Source: Rhodospirillales bacterium
GTDB lineage: Bacteria > Pseudomonadota > Alphaproteobacteria > BOG-932 > Roseiterribacteraceae
Reading direction: 5' to 3'
NCBI GenBank assembly: GCA_003165335.1
Contig: PLTD01000246.1
Coordinates: forward strand, 1-34,644
DNA: 34,644 nt
How positions within the stretch are numbered: the stretch's first letter is position 1; every line of letters begins with the position of its first letter. A program made the position numbers and the translations under genes. Of this stretch, positions 8,138 to 17,782 are shown one piece after another. The notes beneath the pieces were generated by a model. That model had not been told where the DNA came from. It saw nothing but the letters and a program-made list of their open reading frames with translations, and made no database searches.

Positions 8138-9751
<1,614 letters not shown>

Positions 9752-13297: not shown

Positions 13298-15142
13298 ATG
13301 CCCGATAGCGATTCGCCGCTCGAGACTTTCAAGCGCGCCACCGCGGCGACCGTACGCGCGATGTCGGGGCAAGATGAGGTCGAGGTCACATTCTCGAACG
13401 ATGCTCCGTCCGTTTCGGGCAAGCGCGTCCGAATTCCAAACCCTGCGCGTGACCTGAACCCGCGCGATGCTGCCGTGGCGCGCGGTGCGGCCGACGCCAT
13501 GGCGCTGAAGTTGCGCCACCACGATGCAGGCATCCACGCCTATCGTATGCCGAATTCAACTCAGGCGCGGGCTGCCTTCGACGCCTTGGAACAGGCGCGC
13601 TGCGAGGCGATCGGGGCCAAACAGATGGCCGGCGTCGCCTCCAACCTGGGTGCGGCGATCGACGACCGCTCTCGCCGTCAAGGATTCGACCGGGTCACAA
13701 CGCGCGATGAGTCGATGTTGCCCGAAGCTCTTAAGCTCCTGGCGCGCGAGGCGCTGACGGGGGAGCCGCCGCCGCCCTCCGCCCGTTCGATGGTCGACGC
13801 CTGGCGTCCCTTTATCGCCGAACATATGCCCTCGCGCTTCGATAGTCTGCAAAAGGTGCTTTACGATCAGGACGATTACGCCCGCGAGACGCGCCGTCTT
13901 CTGACCCAGCTTTCCCTCGATGTCGGACCCGAGATGGAGGAACCGCAGAGCGGCGACGCCGACTCCGAGCAGGACGACCAAGATAGTGAGGAGCAATCAG
14001 AGTCCGACGATCAGGGTGGCCAGACCGAGCAGCAGACCGGCGAGATGCGCCCGACCATGGGCGACGGCGAAAGCGACGAGGCGGCGCAGATCGAAGTCGC
14101 AATGAGCGAAGCGGCCGAAGGCGGCGACGGCACGGAAGATGAAGAATCCGACGCCACCCCTCGCCCCGGCGCGCCTTCGGATTCGACCGACCGCAACGTC
14201 TATAAGGCCTTCACCACTGAATTCGACGAGATCGTGGGGGCGGACCAGCTTGCAGATCCGGAAGAACTCGCCCGCCTGCGGCGACTTTTGGATCAGCAGC
14301 TGCAGCATCTCCACGGTGTTGTCGCACGACTGGCAAACCGCCTGCAGCGCCGATTGCTGGCCAAGCAGACCCGCGCCTGGCAGTTCGACCTTGAGGAAGG
14401 AATGCTGGATACGGCGCGGCTGGCCCGTGTGGTGGTCAACCCGGTCCTGCCGTTGTCGTTCAAGCAGGAAAAGCAGACCGAGTTCCGCGACACTGTCGTC
14501 ACGCTGCTGATCGACAATTCAGGCTCCATGCGCGGCAGACCGATTACGATCGCCGCACTCAGCGCCGACGTGCTGGCGCACACGCTGGAACGTTGCGGCG
14601 TCAAGGTCGAAATCCTCGGCTTCACGACCCGCGCCTGGAAAGGCGGCCAGTCGCGCGAGCGTTGGATCGCGGCGGGCAAACCGGTAAATCCGGGCCGCCT
14701 CAATGATTTGCGGCACATCATCTATAAGTCCGCCGATGCACCCTGGCGGCGGGCCCGCAAGAATCTCGGCCTGATGCTGCGTGAGGGGCTGCTCAAAGAA
14801 AATATAGATGGCGAGGCGCTGTTATGGGCGCACTCGCGCCTGATGGGCCGCCCCGAGCAGCGGCGGATTTTGATGGTGATCTCGGACGGCGCGCCGGTTG
14901 ACGACTCCACCCTATCGATCAACAGCGGCAACTACCTGGAACAGCATCTGCGCGAGGTCATCCGCTCGATCGAAAATAGCGGTTCGGTCGAACTGGTGGC
15001 GATTGGTATCGGCCATGATGTCACGCGCTATTACCGCCGCGCGGTGACGCTGGTGGACGCCGAGCAGTTGGGCGGCACCATGCTGGGCAAACTGTCCGAA
15101 CTGTTCGAAGCCGAAACCGGCGGCCGTCGCAGGGCGGCCTGA
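13298..15142 (+). CDS. cobT: Cobaltochelatase subunit CobT (VWA domain)
   Basis: CobT pairs with CobS as a chaperone-like complex for cobaltochelatase. The 614-aa protein has an N-terminal helical domain, a strongly acidic Asp/Glu/Ser/Gln linker (about 205-300), and a C-terminal von Willebrand A domain with the MIDAS motif D406-x-S408-x-S410 ([11 protein letters not shown]). The [10 protein letters not shown] stretch is typical of CobT. A GGGCGGA ribosome site precedes the ATG. The P450 gene begins six bases after its stop. The acidic linker is expected for the family and not a sign of transfer. Confidence 0.95.
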
Positions 15143-15148
15143 CAGGCT

Positions 15149-16363
15149 GTGAGCCCCTTCCCAGTTCCGATCGACCTTTCCCGGGCAGACTATTGGGTCG
15201 ATCCCTACCCCACTTTGGGCGCTGCGAGGGCTGCTGGGCGCACGACTGTGACGAGCGGCGGCGAGATCGTGCTGCTGAACGCAGACGACGTCGACACACT
15301 CTATCTCGACCCGCATTTCACCGTACCCGGCGTGAGTGACCTGGCGCGGATCGGTATCACCGACGGGCCCTTCTATGAATGGCGGAAGCAGACGCTGGCG
15401 GTAAAAACCGGGGATGAGCATGCGCGCCTGCGCGGATTCGTCGGGCCGGCCTTCTCGGTGCGTCAGATGGATCGGCTGCGGGCCGTGGCGCGTGAACGCG
15501 CCCATGCGCTGATCGACACACACGCCGATGATTGCGAAATGGAGGTACTGGCCGATTTCGCCGGAGACCTGCCGCTGTGGTCGATGTGCAAATTCATCGG
15601 CATCAGCGATGAAGATCGTCTCAGGATCGGGGCATTCCTGGTCGGCACCGAAGAAGGCTTTACCAGCCCGATGACGCCCGACCGCCGGGCGCGGGTCGAG
15701 GCCGCGATCACGGCTCTCAACGATTACATCCGCGAATTGATCGCGCGTCAGCGTTCGGAACCGCAGGACAATCTGATCGGCATGCTGATCGCCAAGCAGG
15801 CCGATCCTGACGGCCCGACCGAAGACGAACTGCTGTCGCTAGTGGTCAACATCGTCGGCGGCTCTGTAGGGTCAACCCGCGCCGCCTTCGCGAATGCGAT
15901 TCTCGAGTTTGCGCGCCATCCCGATCAAGCTGAAATCGTGCGCCGCGATGAAGGTAAGGTTCAAAGAGCGGTCGAGGAATGTCTGCGTTTTCATCCGCCG
16001 TTCCGCTTCGGGCGCCGTGTGGTTAAGGAAGCGACCGGAATGTTCGGCCTCGACTTGACCGTCGGACAATCGATTTTCGTGCCCCGCCAAGCCGTCAACC
16101 GCGACCCTGCCCGCTTCGACGACCCCGACAGGTTCGATGTGATGCGGACACAACGACGTCACTTCAGCTTCTCACATGGCACGCATCTTTGCCTCGGGCA
16201 CGCCATGGCCCGCACCAACCTGCAGGAGGGGCTGAAGGTCCTTCTGGAGCGCTGCATGGCTATCGAATTGCTGGAAGAGCCGGTGCGCGTGCCCTTCGTG
16301 CCGGACGAACAGTTAAAATCTCTGAATATTCGCTTTCGACCGGCCGATCGCAGGACCGTGTGA
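15149..16363 (+). CDS. Cytochrome P450 with an atypical I-helix
   Basis: This is a 404-aa soluble bacterial-type P450. Heme-binding loop F341-S-H-G-T-H-L-C348-L-G350 fits FxxGxHxCxG, with C348 as thiolate ligand. The K-helix ExxR is E277-x-x-R280, and the C-helix HARLR is present. The I-helix reads VGGSVGSTR (236-244); aligned without gaps to P450cam VGGLDT, the acid D251 becomes V240 and the alcohol T252 becomes G241. That acid-alcohol pair normally delivers protons for O-O cleavage, so the chemistry may be unusual. The start is GTG, six bases after cobT, so translation may be coupled. No ferredoxin or reductase is adjacent; the substrate is unknown. Confidence 0.93.
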   Translation: MSPFPVPIDLSRADYWVDPYPTLGAARAAGRTTVTSGGEIVLLNADDVDTLYLDPHFTVPGVSDLARIGITDGPFYEWRKQTLAVKTGDEHARLRGFVGPAFSVRQMDRLRAVARERAHALIDTHADDCEMEVLADFAGDLPLWSMCKFIGISDEDRLRIGAFLVGTEEGFTSPMTPDRRARVEAAITALNDYIRELIARQRSEPQDNLIGMLIAKQADPDGPTEDELLSLVVNIVGGSVGSTRAAFANAILEFARHPDQAEIVRRDEGKVQRAVEECLRFHPPFRFGRRVVKEATGMFGLDLTVGQSIFVPRQAVNRDPARFDDPDRFDVMRTQRRHFSFSHGTHLCLGHAMARTNLQEGLKVLLERCMAIELLEEPVRVPFVPDEQLKSLNIRFRPADRRTV

Positions 16364-16446
16364 CCTGAAAACGTTACATAGGAATAGCGTCATGGATCTT
16401 GATCTCGCCGCCACGATTCGGCGATGTCCAGTGTAGGGAGTGCGCG

Positions 16447-16782
16447 ATGATGAATCATAAAGCAGTTGTCTGTGCCTGCGCCGCCTTAGCTCTTGCAGTC
16501 ACGCCGACCATGTCTGCGTCGGCGCATTATTACCGGCATGGCGGCATCATTTTTGGATTGGGCGCACTTGGCGCGGCAGTTCTCGGAACTGCGGCCGCGG
16601 TCGCGACGGCCCCGTTCGTCGCCCTGGCGCCCAGACCCTATTACGGTGCGCCGCCGGCATATTATGGTCCGCCTCCGGCATATTATCCGCCCCCACCGGC
16701 CTATTATGCCCCGCCCCCGGCTTATTACGCGCCCCCGCCGCAGGCCTATTACGGCCCGCCTGGATACTACGCCCCGCGATGA
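16447..16782 (+). CDS. Secreted Pro/Tyr-repeat protein
   Basis: The 111-aa protein has a Sec signal peptide (cleavage after SASA, near residue 26) and a Gly/Ala-rich hydrophobic segment (about 34-57). Its C-terminal half is built of repeated PPAYY units (PPxYY, about seven copies, residues 64-110). The repeats suggest a surface-exposed, extended or cross-linkable polypeptide. A strong AGGGAG ribosome site lies six bases before the ATG at 16447. It is followed directly by an intrinsic terminator. Small glycine-zipper/PxYY proteins are common in alphaproteobacteria, but the function is unknown. Confidence 0.75.
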   Translation: MMNHKAVVCACAALALAVTPTMSASAHYYRHGGIIFGLGALGAAVLGTAAAVATAPFVALAPRPYYGAPPAYYGPPPAYYPPPPAYYAPPPAYYAPPPQAYYGPPGYYAPR

Positions 16783-16833: not shown

Positions 16834-17121
16834 CTAAATCCCTTCGACGATGACCGCTCTGTAATCCGCACCCTTGAAGCGGTGCTGACGCACTTCCGTA
16901 TAGGCCGGGCTGTCGTACCAGGCCTTGGCTTCGGCGAAAGTCGGGAACGCCAGAATGACGACGCCCTCGACCGGGGGCCCCTCAATCACCTCATGACGGC
17001 CATAGACGGCAAGCGGCGTCATATTGTGGCCCACAGTCGAGGGACCGACATTGGCCGAATAGGTGTCCAGTTCGGCCTTGTCCTTGGTCCGGTCGCGCTG
17101 AAAGACGATATAGGCGGTCAT
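16834..17121 (-). CDS. DUF1330 family protein
   Basis: The 95-aa protein matches the DUF1330 ferredoxin-like (dimeric alpha/beta barrel) family: TAYIVFQRDRTKDKAEL, a central GHNMTPLAVYGRHEVIEG, then VVILAFPTFAEAKAWYDSPAY and the RAVIVEG end. These small cytoplasmic proteins have no firm function. The start at 17121 has GGAGAG eight bases upstream; a longer frame exists but lacks support. It ends 15 bases from the terminator of the preceding convergent gene and is 20 bases downstream of tag, so the two may share a transcript. Confidence 0.83.
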   Translation of the reverse strand: MTAYIVFQRDRTKDKAELDTYSANVGPSTVGHNMTPLAVYGRHEVIEGPPVEGVVILAFPTFAEAKAWYDSPAYTEVRQHRFKGADYRAVIVEGI

Positions 17122-17141
17122 TCTATGCTCTCCTGTTGCAA

Positions 17142-17696
17142 TCAATTCTGGTGGATATTCCGCCGAAAACACTCCGGCGCATGGTCGTTGACGATCCCGA
17201 CTGCCTGCATCCAGGCATAGACGATAACCGGGCCGACGAATTTATAGCCGCGCTTTTTCAGAGCCGCAGAAATTTCTTCGGACAGTGGGGTTTGGGCCGG
17301 CACCGTGCCGGTGTTGTGGATCGGCTTGCCGCCCGCCATGCTCCAGACGAATTGCGAAAAATCCTCGCCCGCCGCCTGCATCTTCAGGTAAGCGCGGGCA
17401 TTGCCGATTGTCGCTTCGATCTTCGCCCGGGCGCGCACAATCCCTGCATTCTGCATCAATCGCTCGACATCTTCTCCGCCGAACTGCGCAACCACCGTGG
17501 GCTCGAAGCCCTGGAAAGCTTCGCGGAAAGCATCGCGCTTTTTCAAAATCGTGGACCAGGACAAGCCGGCCTGAAACCCGTCGAGCATCAACTTTTCCCA
17601 AAGCGCCCGGCTGTCATATTCGGGCACGCCCCATTCCTCATCGTGATAGGCGAGCATCATCGAGTCTGCACCCGGCCATGCACAACGCTGCGGCAT
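17142..17696 (-). CDS. tag: DNA-3-methyladenine glycosylase I
   Basis: Tag excises 3-methyladenine from alkylated DNA. Numbering from the ATG at 17696 (preceded by GGAAAAG; an ATG four codons upstream lacks a ribosome site), the 184-aa protein has zinc ligands C5 and H18 (RCAW and AYHDEEWGVP) and a C-terminal NDHAPEC with the other two. It also has the LSW tryptophan, W47. At the position of E. coli Glu38, which contacts the base, it has Asp (D39, LDGFQAGLSW). I believe this substitution occurs in related proteins, so activity is still expected. It is divergent from hisS. Confidence 0.94.
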   Translation of the reverse strand: MPQRCAWPGADSMMLAYHDEEWGVPEYDSRALWEKLMLDGFQAGLSWSTILKKRDAFREAFQGFEPTVVAQFGGEDVERLMQNAGIVRARAKIEATIGNARAYLKMQAAGEDFSQFVWSMAGGKPIHNTGTVPAQTPLSEEISAALKKRGYKFVGPVIVYAWMQAVGIVNDHAPECFRRNIHQN

Positions 17697-17782
17697 TTTC
17701 TTTTCCATAGGTTAAAAAGAATGGTCAGCTATAACCCGCCCCTGCCTAGCCTCCGAGATGATTTTTCGATAAACCGCCCCGC

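Follow-up and report, generated by a model that had tools for sequence, protein, structure and literature searches.

A bacterial cytochrome P450 with glycine and serine aligned to the I-helix acid-alcohol pair of P450cam, and its small family

The P450 gene and its locus

The stretch of DNA analysed here (hereafter the window) comprises 34,644 nucleotides from a Rhodospirillales bacterium and carries at 15149-16363, on the forward strand, a single intact ORF of 404 amino acids with a GTG start, which encodes a complete cytochrome P450. The Pfam p450 profile (PF00067) scores 73.5 bits on the protein (cut-off 22.8), and its AlphaFold2 model (mean pLDDT 95.8) superposes on many bacterial P450 structures with Z values up to 50, the identities to the solved structures being 19-30% among the matches listed. 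By fold, the solved structures nearest to the query are P450 BioI, CalO2 and AurH (Z 49-50, rmsd 1.9-2.2), which also occur among the listed sequence matches (25-26% identity); unlike the query, CalO2 has GHET at the aligned I-helix motif. The protein has kept the K-helix ExxR and the haem loop with its Cys, in agreement with the original prediction: E277, R280 and C348 are invariant columns across 53 aligned P450s. The features referred to below are the following.

15149..16363, + strand: cytochrome P450, 404 aa, GTG start 6 bases past the cobT stop; model pLDDT 95.8
15644..15655, + strand: end of the F-helix, residues 166-169 (GTEE); E168/E169 align with T185/R186 of P450cam
15821..15916, + strand: I-helix, residues 225-256, a helix in the AlphaFold2 model
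15857..15880, + strand: I-helix groove motif GGSVGSTR, residues 237-244; G241 at the Asp251 position and S242 at the Thr252 position of P450cam
15977..15988, + strand: K-helix ExxR (E277, R280), invariant columns
16004..16006, + strand: Arg286, a family signature residue of the loop that follows the K-helix (SRS5 region; 5/5 in the family, 3/99 in the background)
16085..16087, + strand: Arg313, family signature (4/4 in the family, the fifth member being truncated; 0/99 in the background)
16169..16198, + strand: haem-binding loop FSHGTHLCLG with the invariant Cys348
16304..16309, + strand: Asp386-Glu387 in the SRS6 turn (4/4 in the family, 0/97 in the background); D386 aligns with Arg386 of CYP121A1
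13298..15142, + strand: cobT, the upstream gene (TIGR01651, 838.6 bits)
16399..16782, + strand: small Tyr/Pro-rich ORF, directly 3' of cobT in the congener G001

The P450 gene starts 6 bases after the stop codon of cobT. In the congener G001, cobT (88% identical) is directly followed by the Tyr/Pro-rich ORF that here lies 3' of the P450, so the P450 gene is a single accessory insert behind cobT, absent from this locus in the congener. Its base composition (G+C 62%, GC3 72%) resembles that of the neighbouring genes. Contamination of the contig is unlikely, since the adjacent cobS and cobT share 95% and 88% identity with their G001 counterparts, which stand in the same order. The set of cob genes and their synteny suggest an alphaproteobacterium. 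In a second congener, G002, the cobT-hisS interval (L112:5679-6341), which is the spot occupied by the P450 in the window, harbours two small ORFs resembling a ParD/RelE-type toxin-antitoxin pair and seems to be a place where genes turn over. Further downstream in the window, a DUF1330 ORF (16834-17172, - strand) and the end of an ORF for a 3-methyladenine glycosylase (17142-17708) overlap, and G001 has the two behind its cobT as well.

Register of the I-helix and comparison with acid-less P450s

The I-helix string VGGSVGSTR, pointed out in the original prediction, is present at residues 236-244. Anchored on "VGG", that prediction had placed V240 on Asp251 and G241 on Thr252 of P450cam (CYP101A1), so that both acid and alcohol would be missing. 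This register is one residue off. A profile HMM built from about 100 P450s, with the query left out, aligns the query and P450cam gap-free at the I-helix and matches G238, S239, V240, G241 and S242 to Gly248, Gly249, Leu250, Asp251 and Thr252, respectively. Among relatives that carry the acid, the four closest to the query in the first homologue search have N-L-L-F-(A/G)-G-H-D-(S/T)-(S/T)-R in this helix, and the query has N-I-V-G-G-S-V-G-S-T-R, N234 and R244 being invariant and equally spaced in all of them. When the I-helix of the query was scored in blocks against about 100 P450s at shifts from -3 to +3, the flanks gave 1.29 (upstream) and 1.26 (downstream) per residue in the corrected register, as against -0.20 and -0.72 at the shift originally proposed. 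The eight motif residues taken alone slightly prefer that shift (0.60 versus 0.19), which accounts for the mistake; however, it would require one deletion and one insertion within a continuous helix, and both flanks, N234, R244 and the profile HMM favour the other register. On the flank and profile scoring we reject the shifted register and give it almost no chance of being correct.

The anchors on both sides of the motif, together with the profile HMM, argue that only the acid is lost: by alignment, Gly241 takes the place of the I-helix acid, and the alcohol of Thr252 is retained as Ser242. The claim that the acid-alcohol pair is missing thus holds for its first half and fails for its second. 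A register bringing S242 and T243 with a nearby acid into the canonical positions had been envisaged as the alternative; the alcohol does occupy its canonical position, with no acid at the I-helix acid position. Across 100 homologues, column 241 is E or D in 93 and column 242 is Thr in 90 and Ser in three, while Gly fills column 239 in 97, where the query has Ser.

Other P450s that have dispensed with the acid are found in the same genome, with the motifs AGNGTT (L013), AGTGTT (L014), GGSATT (L016), AAFHNT (L015) and AGHHTS (two proteins, presumably CYP51-like). In L015 the alcohol is replaced too, by Asn, and a relative with the same motif (L104) occurs in the congener G001. Among characterized enzymes, CYP121A1 (mycocyclosin synthase) lacks the acid (Ile236) and has the alcohol Ser237 followed by Thr238, an arrangement matched by the acid-less Ser-Thr of the query; the two differ at the acid position itself (Gly241 in the query, Ile in CYP121A1) and at Ser239, which is Gly in CYP121A1. 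P450nor likewise lacks the acid and keeps the alcohol (Ala-Thr). Since AGVIST of CYP121 and AGNATM of P450nor align with GSVGST of the query in the shared profile, a chemistry dispensing with the usual O-O protonation, such as radical coupling (CYP121A1) or NO reduction (P450nor), has to be considered. It is improbable, as nothing in the query is CYP121-like beyond general P450 similarity (127.6 bits with TIGR04538, the cut-off being 500) and no cyclodipeptide synthase is found among the window genes scanned.

The original prediction further noted that known P450s without the pair use substrate groups for proton delivery or use peroxide, and it took the lack of a redox partner gene nearby as compatible with an unusual electron or oxidant supply. 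No redox partner gene is indeed found among the window ORFs scanned, and this, with the missing acid, is what speaks for a peroxide-driven, CYP152-like peroxygenase. The genome of the window, however, encodes about 20 P450s and yields 11 Fer2 hits elsewhere, candidate redox partners among them, so the neighbourhood is hardly informative on the electron source. In place of the Arg-Pro pair of the CYP152 I-helix the query has G241-S242-T243, and its score with the CypC model NF053744 is negligible (18.3 bits, cut-off 600). A peroxygenase is therefore very unlikely.

Loss of the acid alone is not striking; the conserved signature that marks out a separate family is the stronger observation.

The family and its charged signature residues

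The first homologue search returned only acid-bearing cousins, up to 38% identical to the query. These sister P450s (L021/L127 and L022-L024, 33-38% identity) have N234, R244 and the overall architecture in common with the query, but carry a G(A/G)GHD(S/T)(S/T)R-type motif with the acid that the query lacks; moreover, E168/E169, R286, R313 and D386, all present in the query, are absent from L021-L024. A search of the whole genomes behind these cousins yielded L115, which is 48% identical to the query over the full length and carries VVNIIGGAVGSTR, and searches of the order and class of L115 added L126 (49%), L133 (48%) and L134 (48%; an incomplete gene, broken off by the contig end), each of which has GGAVGST. 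All five proteins, the query included, conserve VNxxGG(S/A)VGST, with Gly at the acid position and Ser at the alcohol position in five of five. VGST is thus kept in every member, which answers in the affirmative the question of motif conservation among homologues raised at the outset. That codon 241 (GGG) reflects an error of sequencing or assembly was considered and rejected on the same grounds, the four other members also having Gly there.

Only four members above threshold emerged from 377 genomes of the phylum of L115. Around the window, a protein search of the order of the query, of 385 genomes of its class and of 398 of its phylum gave no second member, only the best few candidates per genome being scored in the large genome searches. 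The listed matches from a plasmid collection were about 28-34% identical. The named record behind L115 is a "Deltaproteobacteria" MAG (OFTM108) that NCBI ranks under Myxococcota, and all four relatives come from genomes of one Myxococcota-type class. First-look P450-profile candidates in this class (e.g. G744) number up to 136 in a single genome, which points to P450 complements of very large size.

In a tree computed with the signature columns removed, the five members form one clade with 100/100 support, and the neighbouring clades retain the acid in an HD(S/T)(S/T)-type motif. Because the adjacent clades keep it, loss of the acid is most simply seen as a derived change on the branch of the five-member family. 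Judged by sequence, the query belongs to a small P450 family that has no name in the libraries searched here. The best NCBIfam match, TIGR04515, could hint at a catalytically silent homologue, for instance a P450-derived glycosyltransferase activator, but with 128.5 and 149.2 bits, respectively, the query and L115 both stay far under its cut-off of 343. The query also has an intact haem loop, haem Cys and ExxR, all of them conserved, and the window holds no glycosyltransferase gene near that of the P450. We regard a silent protein as highly improbable.

The members are further set apart by charged residues. Glu168 occurs in all five and in one of 99 other P450s, Glu169 in all five (3/92 of the others) and Arg286 likewise (3/99); Arg313 and the pair Asp386-Glu387 are present in four of four members and in none of 99 and 97 other P450s, respectively. 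At column 386, neither 123 aligned P450s nor 109 distinct acid-bearing ones have any D, E, K or R. In the profile alignment, which at the F-helix and SRS6 carries some uncertainty towards distant P450s, E168/E169 fall on T185-R186 of P450cam and D386 on Arg386 of CYP121A1, a residue of opposite charge. In CYP121A1 the hydroxyl of Ser237, the counterpart of S242 in the alignment, contacts both Arg386 and the sixth water ligand (PMC11084333), so that in one solved P450 at least, the residue in the D386 column is close enough to reach the alcohol. The F-helix of P450cam, for its part, contacts Asp251 via Lys178 (PMC8470667), which makes the end of this helix another position where a carboxylate might extend into the groove. 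By these alignments the family appears to have gained charges at pocket-side positions in SRS2, SRS5 and SRS6, and a pocket that, as predicted, carries E168, R286 and D386 implies a polar or charged substrate.

Possible routes of proton delivery

The CYP121A1 and P450cam contacts, taken with the signature columns, lead us to propose that the acid has been relocated, with D386 as the first candidate and E168/E169 as the second. The query may well be a redox-driven P450 in which the carboxylate of the proton relay has shifted off the I-helix, a reading that we hold with somewhat less than even confidence. It would work as a conventional redox-driven enzyme, with electrons from ferredoxins encoded elsewhere in the genome, and Ser242 would stabilise the iron-hydroperoxo species as Thr252 does in P450cam. 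Of the carboxylates that could hand protons to Ser242, Asp386 of the SRS6 turn would be the most likely one, and Glu168/Glu169, where the F-helix ends, would come second. This specific form of the proposal, an acid-alcohol relay rebuilt in trans from the retained Ser and a carboxylate of SRS6 or of the F-helix, is more tentative.

Two observations weigh against relocation. The signature and the loss of the acid lie on one branch and count as a single event, not as independent covariation; and the other acid-less P450s of the same genome have no D, E, K or R at column 386, so that compensation at this position is not obligatory there. The role of D386 and E168 may be confined to the substrate, and binding of a polar substrate would be no less simple a use of the charges than a relay.

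The same residues could be read in terms of substrate-assisted protonation of the kind known from CYP107A1 (EryF), in which a polar substrate held by R286, D386 and E168 would donate or position the proton and Ser242 with a water would complete the relay. In EryF the equivalent of Thr252 is Ala245 and the 5-OH of the substrate is used (PMC10741444), and calculations point to the substrate carboxylate in OleT (PMC10988616); the charged signature at pocket-side positions, implying a polar substrate, fits these precedents. EryF and the query have each lost one half of the acid-alcohol pair naturally, although not the same half: EryF has lost the alcohol (PMC10741444), whereas the query has lost the acid and, unlike EryF and OleT, kept the alcohol. 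The retained alcohol and the neighbour genes, which vary between family members, speak against substrate assistance, and we consider it possible, albeit doubtful.

Single mutants affecting either the acid or the alcohol of the I-helix underlie much of the present knowledge of how P450s deliver protons. A family that has dropped the acid in nature, kept the alcohol and acquired charges alongside is a ready-made test of alternative proton-donor sites, and also of how far the I-helix acid is needed at all. Should the carboxylate prove to have moved to SRS6 or to the F-helix, a new design position would be available for the engineering of P450s and peroxygenases.

No conserved gene neighbourhood that could serve as a guide to the substrate was found across the family loci compared. 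Luciferase-like monooxygenases lie within 20 kb of the family P450 in two of them (L136 and L137). In L137 (genome G815), unlike in the window with its preceding cobT, a TetR-type regulator gene at 8828-9463 directly adjoins the P450 on the same strand and may encode a dedicated regulator.
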